From: a virus
DNA length: 27,270 nucleotides
IMG/VR virus record: IMGVR_UViG_3300031670_000010
Coordinates: 1 to 27,270 of that record
Strand: one strand, 5' to 3'
Position 1 is the stretch's first letter, and the number at the start of each line of letters is the position of its first letter. A model generated the notes under the pieces. It was not told the DNA's origin. It saw only the letters and a program-made list of their open reading frames with translations, and searched no databases. Positions 16,773 to 22,934 of the stretch are shown here, in pieces. A program made the translations under genes and the position numbers.

Positions 16773-17246
16773 TCAGTAAGCCTTAATAATAGTTTGTTTA
16801 TCCCAAATGATAGTGACACAGGGAGGAGCAGCAGAGGGACCGCCCCTGGCGTGTAGAGTTAAACCATGATGAAAACCAATACCCAAATACCACATCCCCA
16901 TAACCGAACCACTGGAAAAGAACACGCGCCGCCCGTTACAGGCATGATATTTTGGGTGGAGATGATTCTGCAGAACCGCAATATCCGTGGGGTAAAAACC
17001 AGTTGCCTCATCCACAATACCGTCAATCAACTCCAAAGACCCAGAGCCAGTGTGGGTACAGGCGAGACCGCGCAAGATGCCAGGGCCATCTTCTAGCAAG
17101 TAGTTACCAAATTGCTCTAGTACCCAGCCCTTACTCCCCATTTTGGGTATGGTCAGGGTGATCTTATGAATGGGGCCACGGATTTCGTCCCCCCGGTAAA
17201 TATATTTTACGCCTACTGTAGCTGCGGTTGGGTCTATTGCGTCCAT
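16773..17246 (-). CDS. Beta-rich head protein, unidentified
   Basis: 157 aa, directly after the portal gene with an AAGGAA ribosome site. It is beta-rich with a shared motif series (ILRGLACTHTGSGSLELIDG, then GSVMGMWYLGIGFHHGLTL and PCVTIIWDKQ) found again in the next gene. An N-terminal extension (residues 1-55) is unique to this copy. It contains several His/Cys residues but no clear metal site. It is likely a structural head component, by position only. Confidence 0.55.
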   Translation of the reverse strand: MDAIDPTAATVGVKYIYRGDEIRGPIHKITLTIPKMGSKGWVLEQFGNYLLEDGPGILRGLACTHTGSGSLELIDGIVDEATGFYPTDIAVLQNHLHPKYHACNGRRVFFSSGSVMGMWYLGIGFHHGLTLHARGGPSAAPPCVTIIWDKQTIIKAY

Positions 17247-17259
17247 GCTTGTTCCTTAA

Positions 17260-18834
17260 TTAACGGTGGGGTGTGGAATCCAGGGGCCCATCAACAGTTG
17301 TAGATGAAAAGTTGCCGCCTGTGGTAACAGATTGTGGCTTTGGTGTACTAACGTCATCGGGTGTGGGCTCGGGCCGCGCCCCGGAATTAGTCACGTTAGT
17401 CACCGCTTCCTGAGCGTCAAGGGCGTCCAAATCCAACGTCATGTGGACAAATTTCTTGCCCATTTCAGGGTCCAACATGCCAGAATCCACCAACGTCTGC
17501 ACAGCAGAGGCCACCTGCACCAACGCCTCCGGCGGGGTTGGCAATGCCCGTTTCCAGACCACCCCAATGGATTCAATATCAGATTCTTTCATCCCCGCAC
17601 ACAATGGGTGCTTAATTGCAATCCCTGCCAACAGCATCTTCTTTATCAGGGTAAGCATGAATGTGTCGCCCATCGAAGTGCGCAGTTCCTGCACCAAGTC
17701 CACAAACTGATCGTCCAACGCCTCCACAGCCTTACCTGACATGGGTCCCTTAGTGGTTGTTGGGTCCTTACGGGCCGCTGCGCAGGTCTCAAGTGCCATC
17801 TTCCGCAGGAACGCCACGTACTTAAGGGAAGCGTCCACACTACCACCAGTCATTTCCAGTAGTTTGGCATCCCCAGCACCAATCGTCATACCGGAGGCGT
17901 CTTTAACACCTCCCTTCATGTGCAATATCATTGTTGAACGGTCGTAACTACCGTCCGCACTGTCTTGAATCTCACCGATAATTGCGGTCGTAGGAGCTGC
18001 GTTATAACGCACACCACGACCTATCTGACTCATGGTGTAATCCATATCAATAGCCATGTTCAGTGATGGGGCAAACGTACTTGCCCCATCCGGCATCTCA
18101 CCCCCGGCTAAATTGATGCCCCATACCGCTGGGATAAAGCCGAGATTGTGTTCCACTTCACCATCCGCATCCTCGGGGAGCAGATGCAGACGAGTGCTGT
18201 CCCCGTCAACCGGATTCCAACGAAAATCCCGTATAGGAACGTAATTCTTTTCTGAATAAGCATCCAGGTCGCGGATGAACCAGTAGTGCTTATCCGGCAT
18301 AATGTCATCGCCCTCATCATCCTTACCGGCAGGCAAATTCCGTACTAAATAAGCGATACGCAATGCCTCTAACTGCCCGTCCAAAGCAAATTGTGGCCAG
18401 CAAAACCGGGAACGCCATATCTCGATTAAAAACTTCTCCTCCACAATCTTAAAGGTAGCGCACACTGACCCCACCGATCCCCAAATGCTCGCCTGCAACA
18501 TGAAGTAAAAGAGATTACTGGAATTAGCCAAGGTCTTGAGCTTTTGGACCATTTCCTCTTTGTCATGTATCAATTTAGGCGTATGGTTGCCAGCGAACAA
18601 CTTGCGTGCTGTGGTCTTAGCCACATACATGGGGAGGTTGAATTGGACACACGGGCGACGGTTCTCAATGGGGATGTAGTTCCCCGATTCATCTTTTTCA
18701 TCGTAATAAGCTGATGGCAAGTCATCGTAAACGGTGCCGTCAAGAAAACGGTCCAATACCGTTAGCCTCACATAGCGGTCGCTCTTGCTGGCCCACGCCG
18801 GCAATTTCAATTTAGGTATGAGTTTCTGTAGCAT
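17260..18834 (-). CDS. Portal protein (SPP1 gp6 / P22-like)
   Basis: 524 aa, starting one base after the terminase stop. The order of elements fits the portal family: an N-terminal wing with VLDRFLDGTVYDDLPSAYYDE, LPMYVAKTTARKLF, and an FLIEIWRSRFCWPQFALDG beta section. The stem region is NMAIDMDYTMSQIGRGVRYNAAPTTAIIGE, the clip/crown part is GGSVDASLKYVAFLRKMALETCAAAR, and a helix follows (DDQFVDLVQELRTSMGDTFMLTLIKKML). The C-terminal 60 residues are Pro/Ser/Thr-rich and probably disordered. The dodecameric portal sits at one capsid vertex and passes DNA from the terminase. Adjacent terminase and portal genes are the classic pairing. Confidence 0.88.
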   Translation of the reverse strand: MLQKLIPKLKLPAWASKSDRYVRLTVLDRFLDGTVYDDLPSAYYDEKDESGNYIPIENRRPCVQFNLPMYVAKTTARKLFAGNHTPKLIHDKEEMVQKLKTLANSSNLFYFMLQASIWGSVGSVCATFKIVEEKFLIEIWRSRFCWPQFALDGQLEALRIAYLVRNLPAGKDDEGDDIMPDKHYWFIRDLDAYSEKNYVPIRDFRWNPVDGDSTRLHLLPEDADGEVEHNLGFIPAVWGINLAGGEMPDGASTFAPSLNMAIDMDYTMSQIGRGVRYNAAPTTAIIGEIQDSADGSYDRSTMILHMKGGVKDASGMTIGAGDAKLLEMTGGSVDASLKYVAFLRKMALETCAAARKDPTTTKGPMSGKAVEALDDQFVDLVQELRTSMGDTFMLTLIKKMLLAGIAIKHPLCAGMKESDIESIGVVWKRALPTPPEALVQVASAVQTLVDSGMLDPEMGKKFVHMTLDLDALDAQEAVTNVTNSGARPEPTPDDVSTPKPQSVTTGGNFSSTTVDGPLDSTPHR

Positions 18835-18835
18835 T

Positions 18836-21280
18836 TTACCGCCCGTAAATAGAGGCCAATCGCGGGCCCTGTGAGTCTGGGTTATTATACAGGACTTTGT
18901 GGATTAAATAGTCCACGCCGTAGATTAGGGCGTCACAAAAATCATCGTGCGCGCAATCCGGTTGAAAGGCCAGCAATTCGTTCATAAGGGGCTGAAGCCA
19001 TTTTACACAATCAACACTATAAACGTCACCAGCTTTTGGTTCATCTAAGGGGAAAACCACCAAACCCGCCTCAAATACGGGGGTAACAGTATGTGCCCGA
19101 GCAATTTTATCTATTCCTTTAGGATGGGCCGGCCAAAGCAGGGGGGTTGGGATCACCGGGTCCCTATACAGTTCCTGAAGCAAACTCTCACCTGAACCTT
19201 TATCTTCAATCACAACCCTATGGGCTCCGTGCTTCTCATAAAACACTTTAATCATTTGTTTAACTTCACCAAAAGGCAATTTTCCCCGCCACGCATCCAA
19301 AATGTAATACTTAGCACCATATTTACCGATCACCAAACAAGCAGAATAATCATTTTCTTGTTTAGTTTTAATCGCAGTGTCCCACGCATGACAGACATAA
19401 TCAAAAACCTCAAACGCCCGTTCTCCCTCTGCCAAGCGTTGTTGAACTTCTTTAGGAAGCGGCCCCTGATACAACATATCACGCTTAAATACTTTCCCCT
19501 CCATCACAACATTCCAATCACCTTCCAACCACGCCCGAACTAACCATGCTGGCCCTGAAGAACGCAAACGATTTATATAAAGTGGGTCATTCTCCAACAA
19601 CGCCGGGTTATCACGGATAGTAGAGGGAATATAACACTGGGTCAAACCAAACCTGTTAGTGAAAATAGTTAATGGTGGAGCGGGGTCAATGTAGCGTTCT
19701 TTACACCACTCATGCCCCCTAGAACCCGGATTACCAGTCAATAACATCCGGCATTTCATGCCTGGAACGGCTGATCGCACAATCGCCCGCAATTTGTCCA
19801 AGGGTTCGGGAAATGGCCAATCAGCTATTTCATCTACTGCTAAATGGCTATTCTTGTTTATGAGGCCGGATTCTGTTATATAATGATTAGCATGTTGGAC
19901 ACACAAGTCCATTACCTTACGGATACCACATGGACGCATCAAACACTTCCCAACCACCACGCTTGCCTGTGCTGACCGTGCCTGCCCACTATAAGGATGC
20001 ACATACTTATGTAAATAAACTTGGCTATGTATATGAGTTTTGCCCACAACATCCCCTAGCCGAGCGGCACTATGGGATGGTCCCCCAGCATCGGTTGGTT
20101 GTAGAGGTTGCTCAAGGTAAGTTTCTAACCAAGGGACTTGTGATTCACCATCTAAATCATTGCCCCCGGGACAACCGCCTAGAAAACCTGCAAATTCTAA
20201 CTTGGGCGCAACATGATGCCATACACGCCCGCGCCAGAAGTCACAGATACGATCCAAAAGTGATTGAGTGGGTAAAGCAGCACGCATCTGACCCAACCGT
20301 AGGGATAAATGATTGCCCTTACACATACCCAGGAACCATTGCAAAAGTCTGCCGAGATTTGAAGTTGACCTGGATTGCGAAAGGCCAAAATCGAGAGCCT
20401 TTAACTGCCGCTGAAGTACGTAAAGCACTACGGGGGAAGACAACTGCCCAAGCTGCTCGTCAGTTAAAGGTATCAGTAATGACCCTTTACAATCGCTTCC
20501 CGCATCTTTTGAAGAAACGAAAGTCGCCTGGGTTTCTGGATGCCCGTGAACAAGAGATTCGTAACTTAGCCAAGCAACATTACTTGCCTGATTTAGCCAA
20601 CTTAATAGGCGTAAACGCGATAACCCTAAGCAAGAGTTTGAAACGGTGGCGTAAACGGGATGAGTTACCGGATGGCACTGAGTACCTAGAAGCTCCCCAT
20701 GGCCCCCGTAAATTCTGGCCTCCACACATTTCGCGTCGAAAGGCTCGAAAACTGAGACGACAGGTTGTGGTCCTTCAAGAGTCTGAACCAAATCACCCAC
20801 AACAATAGTCTCTATGGGCTGGTAAGTCCCATCCCCCATTAAAATCTTGGTGCCAACAGCCACACACCGACTGAATCCCTTATAAATATCAACATCCCGG
20901 TCGTGTTCAAGATAACGAAACATCCAATCAGACCCGTTAGGACCAATCCATGTAGATTTACTCTCTTTGTATTCCCACCCTATGGGCTGCAACAACATCC
21001 GAGCCAAAGTCAGTAGTTCGGTAAATTCAGTAGTGTGCCTACGAAACACAATACCATGTGCATCGGAACCGTAACGAGTAGCATGTGCCAACCAATCCAG
21101 AATTAGTGAGTAAGTTTTCCCCCCGCCCCGAGCGCCGCCCATTAAAATCTCAAACGCAGGACAGGACAGCAGAAAACTCTGCGGTCCGGGCTGCGCCTTA
21201 ATCGTCTTAGTGTTGGGGGTATCTAAAGGCGGTGGTGAGAAGGTCATTGTAGTATTTTTTGTGTAGGACCTGAAACTCAC
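18836..21280 (-). CDS. Terminase large subunit with in-frame intein
   Basis: 814 codons, or 475 aa after removing a 339-aa intein (residues 139-477). Extein motifs: Walker A G-G-A-R-G-G-G-K-T at 48-56, then Walker B HLAVDEIADW starting straight after the intein. The coupling segment LLTGNPGS is present. The nuclease domain has acidic residues in VCHAWDTAIKTKQENDYSACLVIG, VVIEDKGSGESLLQEL and HDDFCDALIYGVDYL. The joined junction reads KGFSR/SHLAVDEI, matching the usual 'Y-x-G ... h-h-h-D-E' spacing, so splicing must precede packaging activity. The annotated start is GTG at 21280; an ATG at 21247 (MTFSPPPLD) is at least as plausible. Either overlaps the upstream gene. The protein cuts and pumps DNA into the head through the portal. 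Confidence 0.92.
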   Translation of the reverse strand: MSFRSYTKNTTMTFSPPPLDTPNTKTIKAQPGPQSFLLSCPAFEILMGGARGGGKTYSLILDWLAHATRYGSDAHGIVFRRHTTEFTELLTLARMLLQPIGWEYKESKSTWIGPNGSDWMFRYLEHDRDVDIYKGFSRCVAVGTKILMGDGTYQPIETIVVGDLVQTLEGPQPVVSVFEPFDAKCVEARIYGGHGELLGTQCHPVTHPVYATVSNSCLGLSRLRLLSWLNQASNVAWLSYESLVHGHPETQATFVSSKDAGSDCKGSLLIPLTDEQLGQLSSPVVLYVLQRQLKALDFGLSQSRSTSNLGRLLQWFLGMCKGNHLSLRLGQMRAALPTQSLLDRICDFWRGRVWHHVAPKLEFAGFLGGCPGGNDLDGESQVPWLETYLEQPLQPTDAGGPSHSAARLGDVVGKTHIHSQVYLHKYVHPYSGQARSAQASVVVGKCLMRPCGIRKVMDLCVQHANHYITESGLINKNSHLAVDEIADWPFPEPLDKLRAIVRSAVPGMKCRMLLTGNPGSRGHEWCKERYIDPAPPLTIFTNRFGLTQCYIPSTIRDNPALLENDPLYINRLRSSGPAWLVRAWLEGDWNVVMEGKVFKRDMLYQGPLPKEVQQRLAEGERAFEVFDYVCHAWDTAIKTKQENDYSACLVIGKYGAKYYILDAWRGKLPFGEVKQMIKVFYEKHGAHRVVIEDKGSGESLLQELYRDPVIPTPLLWPAHPKGIDKIARAHTVTPVFEAGLVVFPLDEPKAGDVYSVDCVKWLQPLMNELLAFQPDCAHDDFCDALIYGVDYLIHKVLYNNPDSQGPRLASIYGR
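19854..19884 (+). promoter_or_regulatory. Possible promoter for the antisense HNH gene
   Basis: TATAAT, a perfect -10 box, lies at 19879-19884, with TTGTTT at 19854-19859 as a possible -35 (19-base spacer, longer than ideal). Transcription would begin about 40 bases before the HNH ATG. It lies within the codons of intein blocks F/G, so it may be a by-product of coding for H-Y-I-T. Confidence 0.38.
19930..20808 (+). CDS. HNH homing endonuclease-like protein, antisense inside the intein
   Basis: 292 aa on the plus strand, wholly inside the intein gene. Residues 31-100 are a clear HNH_3-type domain: GYVYEFCPQHPLAERHYGMV, QHRLVVEVAQGKFLTKGLVIHH at about 53-74, and NHCPRDNRLENLQILTWAQH at 76-95, with H73/H74, N82, N86 and H95 in catalytic/metal positions. 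Residues 158-195 (AAEVRKALRGKTTAQAARQL) and 205-243 look like helix-turn-helix DNA-binding units. The last 45 residues are basic and lie antisense to intein blocks A and B, so they may be a non-essential tail. The ATG at 19930 has no strong ribosome site. Likely role: cutting terminase genes that lack the intein so that it spreads. Free expression from the antisense strand is inferred. Confidence 0.8.
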   Translation: MDASNTSQPPRLPVLTVPAHYKDAHTYVNKLGYVYEFCPQHPLAERHYGMVPQHRLVVEVAQGKFLTKGLVIHHLNHCPRDNRLENLQILTWAQHDAIHARARSHRYDPKVIEWVKQHASDPTVGINDCPYTYPGTIAKVCRDLKLTWIAKGQNREPLTAAEVRKALRGKTTAQAARQLKVSVMTLYNRFPHLLKKRKSPGFLDAREQEIRNLAKQHYLPDLANLIGVNAITLSKSLKRWRKRDELPDGTEYLEAPHGPRKFWPPHISRRKARKLRRQVVVLQESEPNHPQQ

Positions 21281-21698
21281 CGTCGGTAGTGAAAATGTTG
21301 CGACTCAAATCCATTAGGTAATGCTGAGAGTGCTGAAGAAATAAATCACTGGCTTGATCCGGGGTTCTGGCCCACACCCGCATCACTGGGACATATCCAT
21401 GCCGTTTCAGCCACCTAGGGTACATTGCGTAGGCAGCATGTGGTACAACCATTGAAAAATGAAACACAAACAACATCAGGAAAACAAGAAAACTGTGTGC
21501 TAGAACCCCACAGGTGACAGCAAGCTCCAAACCCAGCACATCCACAAAAAACATCCAGAACATAAGCGACCACGCATTATTATCAAACGCATGACCAGCC
21601 CCAAAACCGGAGAGCAAGGGGAGCCGCTCATAATCGTCCAACATCATCAATTCTCCCAAGTCATTCACATACACTTTCCACCAGTGGTACTTTTTCAT
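21207..21698 (-). CDS. Membrane protein, unknown
   Basis: 163 aa with an AAGGGGG ribosome site. Residues about 43-65 (WSLMFWMFFVDVLGLELAV) and 66-88 (AHSFLVFLMLFVFHFSMVV) are two adjacent hydrophobic helices; the N-terminal 40 and C-terminal 70 residues are soluble and charged (RVWARTPDQASDLFLQHSQH). The 3' end overlaps the terminase start by 41-74 bases depending on which terminase start is used. No family is recognised. A membrane protein directly upstream of a terminase is not standard packaging equipment; it may be accessory. Confidence 0.6.
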   Translation of the reverse strand: MKKYHWWKVYVNDLGELMMLDDYERLPLLSGFGAGHAFDNNAWSLMFWMFFVDVLGLELAVTCGVLAHSFLVFLMLFVFHFSMVVPHAAYAMYPRWLKRHGYVPVMRVWARTPDQASDLFLQHSQHYLMDLSRNIFTTDGEFQVLHKKYYNDLLTTAFRYPQH

Positions 21699-21961: not shown

Positions 21962-22564
21962 ATGGACGAAACCCCAACAGAATCAGTGAGTTACGAGCCG
22001 GGGAGCGATCAAGACCCCAGGTTAAGCGCCCTGCGTCTCATCACCCTGCAAGCACAGGCGGCTAGGAAACTACTTAAAATCCTAAGAAAACCAGAGGAAT
22101 GGTGCCCAATGGGGAAGGCCGTAGATTACCAGGGCAAACAAGTCAGCCCCCTATCTGCGAACGCTACCCACTGGAGCCTACTCGGGACCCTCTACCGCTG
22201 CCGGCTCAATGAATCTGAAGTGATGGCGCTACGCGTGTTCTTTGAAGGTGGCCAAGGCTGGACCATTGAAAGTGTCAGCAACAGCATGCCCAGACAGGAG
22301 CAGGTGAAGGTATTACAGGGATTAGCCAAAGACTGCGGGAAAAAGGAACAGGCACTGGAGGATTACCAAATGCTGGCGCGAGCCTACCAGGAAAAAAAGT
22401 TTAGAGACAATCTGGCTCAGTTGAAGTCGAAGCCTCAGAGTGCCCATCCCCATATTCCGCAACATATTGCCTCCAATGGACCCACCGATCTCTCAAATGA
22501 AACCCCCATGCCCGGTAACGTGGACCAGTCACAAACAACGACCACACCGGAGCCCCCGGGCTAA
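21962..22564 (+). CDS. DUF6197-like protein on the plus strand
   Basis: 200 aa. It is one of only two plus-strand genes here; no minus-strand gene competes for 21962-22400. Residues 33-80 (ARKLLKILRKPEEWCPMGKA, then DYQGKQVSPLSANATHWSLL and GTLYR) fit the DUF6197 pattern 'helix-W-x-x-x-x-x-x-x-x-x-G-x-x-v-x-p-x-x-x-x-A-x-x-W-x-x-x-G-A-l'. The function of that family is unknown. The last 55 residues are low-complexity (Gln/Ser/Pro/Thr) and overlap, tail to tail, the 3' end of the cupin-like gene on the other strand. The ribosome site is weak. The start lies 23 bases from the divergent start of the small gene at 21938. Confidence 0.6.
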   Translation: MDETPTESVSYEPGSDQDPRLSALRLITLQAQAARKLLKILRKPEEWCPMGKAVDYQGKQVSPLSANATHWSLLGTLYRCRLNESEVMALRVFFEGGQGWTIESVSNSMPRQEQVKVLQGLAKDCGKKEQALEDYQMLARAYQEKKFRDNLAQLKSKPQSAHPHIPQHIASNGPTDLSNETPMPGNVDQSQTTTTPEPPG

Positions 22565-22934
22565 CGACCAATCGGTGCGGCGTTCTAGCATGCCTAAAAA
22601 CCCATTCACCGGCAAAGCGTGATAACTGCACAGTTTCTTCTTCACCAAAGGTATCTTGGTCAAAACTGTGTTGAATCAACCAATTCCTGTCCACCAATGT
22701 AACTTCACGATAAGTGCCCTTCAGAATGATGCTGAGGTTCCCCCAGGGATGGTCATGCAAAGCTCTGGAATCATCCGAGCGCATAATCTTGTGCAGGTAA
22801 ATGTTGAAAAAGGGATTACGCGGCAAAATCCACCACCGCCACAAATAGTTATTGCCAATAATTACATCAGGCTTCAGACTGAAGCACAGCCAATTAGGAA
22901 ACCAACCCTCTTCATTGTTTCTTAGACTGCGCAT
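22401..22934 (-). CDS. Cupin-like protein
   Basis: 177 aa. The first cupin motif is R-A-L-H-D-H-P-W-G at residues 57-65 (His60, His62), followed by a glycine-turned strand pair (NLSIILKGTYREVTLV). The second motif is GEWVFRHARTPHRLVV at 109-124 (His115, His120). It ends with SLFVTGPRYRAWGFHLRDRWVHWRQY. This 'H-D-H-P-W ... R-x-P-H-R' type is frequent in phages and probably binds a metal ion; the substrate is unknown. The start overlaps the upstream gene's stop region. The 3' end overlaps the plus-strand gene by 164 bases, yet the conserved W-G-F region lies inside the overlap, so both strands are constrained there. Confidence 0.75.
   Translation of the reverse strand: MRSLRNNEEGWFPNWLCFSLKPDVIIGNNYLWRWWILPRNPFFNIYLHKIMRSDDSRALHDHPWGNLSIILKGTYREVTLVDRNWLIQHSFDQDTFGEEETVQLSRFAGEWVFRHARTPHRLVVSPGAPVWSLFVTGPRYRAWGFHLRDRWVHWRQYVAEYGDGHSEASTSTEPDCL

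Follow-up and report, generated by a model that had tools for sequence, protein, structure and literature searches.

A phage terminase intein that probably encodes its HNH homing endonuclease on the antisense strand

To our knowledge, the nucleases of inteins have hitherto been thought to be either in-frame domains or the products of separate genes. In the fractured-gene split inteins reportedly described by Dassa et al. in 2009, a freestanding nuclease gene lies between the two intein halves. The ShiLan domain is a same-strand HNH sequence read in the third frame of a DNA methylase gene, with no detectable splicing domain (PMC11855218, 2025). Antisense homing genes are established for group I introns, as a sequence-only reading of the locus described here had noted: I-DsqI of the Didymium intron L2066 is encoded antisense, expressed and active (PMC9548176).

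We analyzed a 27,270-bp IMG/VR virus record (the window, meaning the whole stretch of DNA under study). We propose that its terminase large subunit (TerL) gene carries a mobile intein whose splicing and homing functions are encoded on opposite strands, a reading in which splicing, cleavage, site specificity, and antisense transcription are predicted steps and to which we assign a probability of about 0.86. The features on which it is built are as follows.

18836-21280, minus strand: terminase large subunit precursor, 814 aa, host of the intein (open reading frame; Pfam Terminase_6C, 4e-11; PHROG terminase, 3e-40).
20867-21280, minus strand: N-extein, 138 aa, ending in DIYKGFSR (alignment with intein-less TerLs).
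18839-19849, minus strand: C-extein, 337 aa, starting at Ser+1, with SHLAVDEIADW as the Walker B region (alignment with intein-less TerLs).
19850-20866, minus strand: intein, 339 aa, from Cys1 to Asn339, followed by Ser+1 (extein alignment; Hint fold by AF2/Foldseek).
20642-20866, minus strand: Hint-N, intein residues 1-75, with Cys1 and block B His69 (both invariant in a 12-intein alignment; AF2).
20015-20641, minus strand: linker of the intein, residues about 76-284, opposite the HNH core (low AF2 pLDDT; substitutions track HNH codons).
19850-20014, minus strand: Hint-C, residues 285-339, with HPY[ST]G, block F NHYI and Asn339 (invariant residues; position-3 substitutions in the last 30 codons).
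19930-20808, plus strand: putative gene for an HNH homing endonuclease of 292 aa, within an open frame of 305 codons (HNH_3, 5.1e-9; PHROG HNH, 9e-14; purifying selection).
20089-20217, plus strand: HNH core, residues 54-96 (H73, H74, N76, N86, and H95 invariant in a 12-member alignment).
20329-20658, plus strand: helix-turn-helix DNA-binding region, residues about 134-243 (HTH_23 match; AF2 helices).
20659-20805, plus strand: basic C-terminal tail of the HNH protein opposite Hint-N, a dual-coding overlap (fewer variable intein-silent sites, P = 6e-8).

Alignment against intein-less terminases places the insert at the YKGFSR / SHLAVDE junction, adjoining Walker B, and joining the exteins in silico gives a predicted spliced terminase of 475 aa. 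The next gene after the terminase encodes the portal (17260-18834); a cysteine-dioxygenase-like phage gene lies at 22404-22934 on the minus strand (PHROG 4786, 8e-46). A sequencing chimera was considered and rejected, as a contig from another sample is 100% identical to window positions 17170-20835, a second other-sample contig is 99.97% identical from 19863 on, and dozens of diverged homologues have the identical layout. L002 and L004, the contigs in which this phage recurs in two other samples, each break off within the intein, one close to either end, the pattern that coexisting intein-plus and intein-minus forms, or variants sharing the intein, would give.

The two frames that the sequence-only reading had singled out, TerL on the minus strand (21280-18836) and HNH on the plus strand (19930-20808), are both open, and HNH residues 1-245 do lie opposite intein residues about 313-68. 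Family searches of both translations, which that reading had called for, returned HNH_3 and HTH_23 on the plus strand and Terminase_6C with a weak Hom_end_hint match on the minus strand. Its view that the HNH core plus the helix-turn-helix regions fill the slot of a conventional intein nuclease is supported. In addition, the HNH gene, contained entirely within the intein on the opposite strand, overlaps the splicing domain at both of its ends. In an AF2 model of the HNH protein (pLDDT 74), helical DNA-binding modules come after the HNH fold, and the model's best PDB match, which we treat as a lead only, is the homing endonuclease I-HmuI (probability 0.77, E 0.07). Sequence searches of the PDB with both proteins gave no informative match.

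Relatives of this element were recovered only with alignment-based queries. Single-sequence scans with HNH and TerL returned no more than this phage itself and a small number of relatives without the intein, a TerL alignment scan did not recover intein-bearing TerLs, and tblastn with HNH and intein against 50,697 phage records matched nothing beyond fragments of the HNH core or Hint-N. A profile built from phage HNH proteins of weak similarity (A2) led to seven contigs with full-length relatives of the plus-strand ORF (39-43% identity), and in all seven the HNH gene lies antisense within a TerL intein at the identical insertion site. A second round brought two more viral contigs and, from bacteria, two genome assemblies, all of identical layout; one assembly is a Burkholderiaceae MAG, the other that of the isolate Polynucleobacter sp. 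Tro8-14-1. No further carrier was found among 398 genomes of the Polynucleobacter family. The codon phase of HNH relative to the terminase frame is the same in all 12 members. We also searched independently, with the intein alignment as sole query and patterns taken from the Hint motifs, and obtained 51 loci, 41 of them, in other phage contigs, with enough intein to judge. The sequence-only reading had named a broken plus frame opposite an intact intein as evidence against a gene; all 41 records instead carry an intact, HNH-like antisense frame (profile E 1e-59 to 1e-157), and both frames are free of stops. Together with the window and the two bacterial copies this makes 44 inteins, 41 of them distinct, in 25 clusters at 90% amino acid identity. 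None of the 44 lacks the HNH gene, although the queries were all HNH-bearing and very different HNH-less relatives could escape them. Two side observations concern hosts with several inteins: the L098/L364 TerL carries a second, ordinary intein with an in-frame LAGLIDADG nuclease at Walker A beside the antisense-HNH intein, and one terminase gene (L483:1920-6296, minus strand) apparently holds four inteins, with an antisense HNH in the second.

Within this family, two inteins are 98.2% identical in nucleotide sequence while their terminase genes are only 75.2% identical (L354 and L368), the intein is closer than the extein in 665 of 700 pairs, and identity falls within about 30 bases of the insertion edges. 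Intein-less relatives, proposed earlier as a check, were found: one that is 93.3% identical to L368 at the nucleotide level has the uninterrupted site EKYQGQNL|SDCAIEEA, and among 80 close relatives retrieved only one contains the intein. Near-identical inteins in diverged terminases, together with empty sites in close relatives, indicate that the element moves horizontally. Filled and empty alleles thus coexist around an element more similar than its flanks, the pattern of a mobile HNH homing endonuclease.

These data bear on the best-surviving alternative, in which both frames are real but the HNH protein is a freestanding nuclease nested antisense, with some other role, and the intein is a passenger. 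Phage HNH enzymes do have other roles, the target site is assumed in our reading, and the HNH protein is structurally independent of the intein. However, full-length HNH relatives (E <= 1e-41, with the next matches at about 1e-14 or worse and mainly to the HNH core) were found by profile scans only inside TerL inteins of this family, the gene sits in the usual intein-nuclease gap, and HNH and intein travel as one unit between diverged terminases. We therefore regard a passenger intein as improbable, and favor a homing nuclease that mobilizes the intein encoding it.

The intein itself retains its splicing parts. Pfam finds a weak Hom_end_hint match that begins exactly at Cys1 (terminase residue 139), and H69, D320, NHYI, and N339 are all invariant in the 12-intein alignment. 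The nucleophiles are present, with Cys1 invariant and Ser, Thr, or Cys at +1; the penultimate residue in the window is Lys, not the common His. In two inteins of the same family (L380 and L382) the last residue seems to be Gln, not Asn (LISSQ|T and LIQAQ|T). In the AF2 model, block-mean pLDDT is 69-94 over intein residues 1-70 and 66-84 over about 301-339, and the best PDB matches by Foldseek are inteins, PI-SceI first (E 2e-4, probability 1.0) and gp41-1 also among them. The middle, opposite the HNH core, is modeled as disordered (pLDDT mostly 25-45), and these residues are predicted to form a drifting, unstructured linker, not a domain. As the sequence-only reading had it, no nuclease domain was detected in the minus frame, which thus lacks the in-frame nuclease of a canonical mobile intein. 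By its residues, the insert is a class 1-like intein with complete splicing signatures and would be expected to splice.

It is much harder to sustain the view that the insert is an RNA intron, or a ShiLan-like non-splicing insertion with an HNH gene, and that its resemblance to Hint is incidental. ShiLan, the closest published element, is indeed such an insertion: its HNH is out of frame, and splicing blocks are lacking (PMC11855218). Against this view stand the conserved Cys1, block B His, block F NHY, terminal Asn, and Ser/Thr/Cys+1, the selection visible in the terminase frame, and the Hint fold. An RNA intron would moreover have no need of an open frame, yet the frame is unbroken in all 44 inteins. 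An Rfam scan of 18800-21400 gave no match at E <= 1, and so no sign of a conserved group I intron RNA structure. We consider this alternative very unlikely, and return to the intein with an antisense nuclease.

A codon-position substitution test, also suggested at the outset, detects selection on each of the two proteins, but not in the same segments. Because the third position of an HNH codon lies opposite intein position 2, the two hypotheses of which protein is selected predict opposite patterns. We compared 21 inteins, each 345 aa long and aligned without gaps. Counts of variable columns at intein positions 1, 2, and 3 are 21, 14, and 44 of 45 in codons 1-45 (Hint), 86, 168, and 53 of 210 in codons 76-285 (core), and 10, 4, and 25 of 30 in codons 316-345. 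The core contrast of positions 2 and 3 gives P = 2e-30 and the Hint contrast of positions 3 and 2 gives P = 3e-18, values that are indicative only, as are all P values of this test, because columns share phylogeny. The substitutions thus switch to HNH third positions in the middle of the intein, identifying HNH as the selected protein there. In one close pair (L183/L184), HNH third positions hold 20 of the 22 core differences, and the same excess recurs in a separate group of 332-aa inteins and in close pairs of P-loop inteins (see below). Over codons 46-75, where the HNH tail lies opposite Hint-N, variable intein-silent sites drop from 98% to 43%, which argues that both proteins are constrained in that stretch. 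Together, the substitution patterns support the intein and the antisense HNH gene as real, selected coding sequences.

Maintenance of the open intein frame leaves its own trace. Synonymous shuffling of the window's HNH codons predicts 10-13 stops in the intein frame, none is observed, and none of 2000 shuffles was stop-free; across 12 inteins the shuffled averages are 4-17 stops, with none in any of the 12 actual sequences. Isoleucine is encoded by ATA in 7 of 7 cases before an A-initial codon, as stop avoidance requires, compared with 17 of 70 elsewhere. In freestanding HNH ORFs read in the equivalent phase, stops occur at 4.5 per 100 codons, and not one of 120 such ORFs is without a stop. 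As far as the alignments can tell, the linker is under no visible amino acid selection and would need only to avoid stop codons. Long antisense frames can also stem from composition in high-GC genomes, as with a 689-codon example in L178, so openness alone proves nothing, and HNH homology and the codon test carry the argument. The weakest alternative, a chance or compositional plus-strand frame of the kind that does occur in GC-rich phages, here opposite a normal intein with a decayed nuclease, is ruled out by the codon-position test (HNH third positions vary in 168 of 210 codons, second positions in 53 of 210) and sits poorly with the HNH profile matches, the protein-level conservation over 12 aligned members (38-42% identity to the window), and the 0 of 120 stop-free freestanding ORFs, leaving it almost no probability.

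We propose that, from the terminase strand, Hint-N (about 75 aa) and Hint-C (about 55 aa) would fold together in the precursor, and that Hint would then splice itself out with its roughly 210-aa floppy linker to yield the 475-aa terminase. On the other strand, the linker DNA would encode the HNH nuclease with its helix-turn-helix DNA-binding domains. Once transcribed antisense, this enzyme would be expected to cut the intein-less terminase gene at the junction adjoining Walker B, and recombinational repair of the cut would copy the intein in. It is plausible, as proposed earlier, that nuclease expression is thereby uncoupled from late terminase expression. A promoter and terminator scan of the window found no convincing antisense promoter, with signals not above those of shuffles, and no Shine-Dalgarno sequence precedes the window's HNH gene. 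Good Shine-Dalgarno sequences precede the HNH ATG in three relatives (L261, L262, and L370), and 16 of 44 best HNH starts score >=5 compared with 5% of off-frame ATGs, an excess that we take as no more than suggestive, since each gene was tried with several starts and the sequences share ancestry.

The arrangement is no isolated case; it belongs to a widespread class at several insertion sites. When all HNH loci were re-checked for nesting, some 20 more HNH ORFs turned up antisense within large ORFs that bear intein blocks, and almost all of them are in the phase of the window family. Outside that family, every host ORF tested has a match to Pfam Intein_splicing (E 2e-14 to 3e-3). These hosts are terminase-like genes in which the insertion is at the P-loop, as in GGNR|C...HN|SGK, and a single SNF2 helicase in an Acidobacteria MAG (L315). 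In this P-loop/SNF2 class the HNH protein has its domains in reverse order, helix-turn-helix first, the Hint differs from that of the window family, and the HNH cores of the two classes overlap over only about 96 residues. Judged from architectures rather than from a tree, this suggests at least two origins of antisense-HNH inteins. The phase, with codon position 1 opposite position 1, is nearly constant across unrelated inteins, and it is not the one with fewest stops in freestanding HNHs. We think it likely that these elements form a widespread opposite-strand class that arose at least twice (HNH-HTH at Walker B; HTH-HNH at the P-loop and in SNF2), with near-constant phase and a disordered open linker.

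These findings add an architecture to inteins. They also offer a natural case in which two unrelated proteins are encoded antisense to each other over about 290 codons, with codon-level evidence of which strand is selected where. An intein can evidently put up with some 210 aa whose sequence is set by another gene, a tolerance of use for intein engineering, and the opposite strand of nuclease-less phage inteins in databases should be checked before they are called mini-inteins or decayed. Our literature search yielded no intein with an antisense nuclease, and the sequence-only reading knew of none; subscription journals and preprints were largely uncovered, so this absence is not proof, and the architecture is apparently undescribed so far.

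Enzymes of the I-HmuI type likewise combine an HNH core with helix-turn-helix DNA binding, but they are intron-encoded and overlap no coding frame. Fractured-gene split inteins share with the window a nuclease uncoupled from the splicing polypeptide; unlike in the window, their host gene is in two parts and the nuclease does not overlap the intein frame. A UvsX/RecA-like gene of Vibrio phage EniLVp02 (L179, 1811-4244) looks fractured in this way, with a homing endonuclease gene between intein halves. The Didymium group I intron resembles the window in having a homing endonuclease gene antisense to a splicing element, but it resides in nuclear rDNA, encodes a His-Cys nuclease, and is non-coding, and therefore imposes no dual-coding constraint. 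In ShiLan, too, an HNH read out of frame overlaps the open frame of its phage host genes and the distribution is sporadic, whereas the window HNH is antisense and accompanied by a Hint under selection, which sets it apart from ShiLan-type insertions. DNA methylase ORFs at four loci (L155, L166, L284, and L291) have intein-like ends (AWVYG|CLSEDTE ... VFVTGN|SGFPKS), and their middle is overlapped by a same-strand, +1-phase HNH ORF of 270-353 codons; in L291 the C-terminal part of the methylase is out of frame. These loci are ShiLan-like, apparently with a splicing domain, and could alter the reading of ShiLan-type insertions. In-frame TerL inteins, known from mycobacteriophage (PMC5050341) and seen in Segz_1 (L177), share with the window the host gene, insertion at ATPase motifs, the Hint domain, and horizontal movement, but they encode the nuclease in frame, as a domain of the intein (of LAGLIDADG type in L177 and in L098's second intein), whereas that of the window is an HNH enzyme encoded on the opposite strand.
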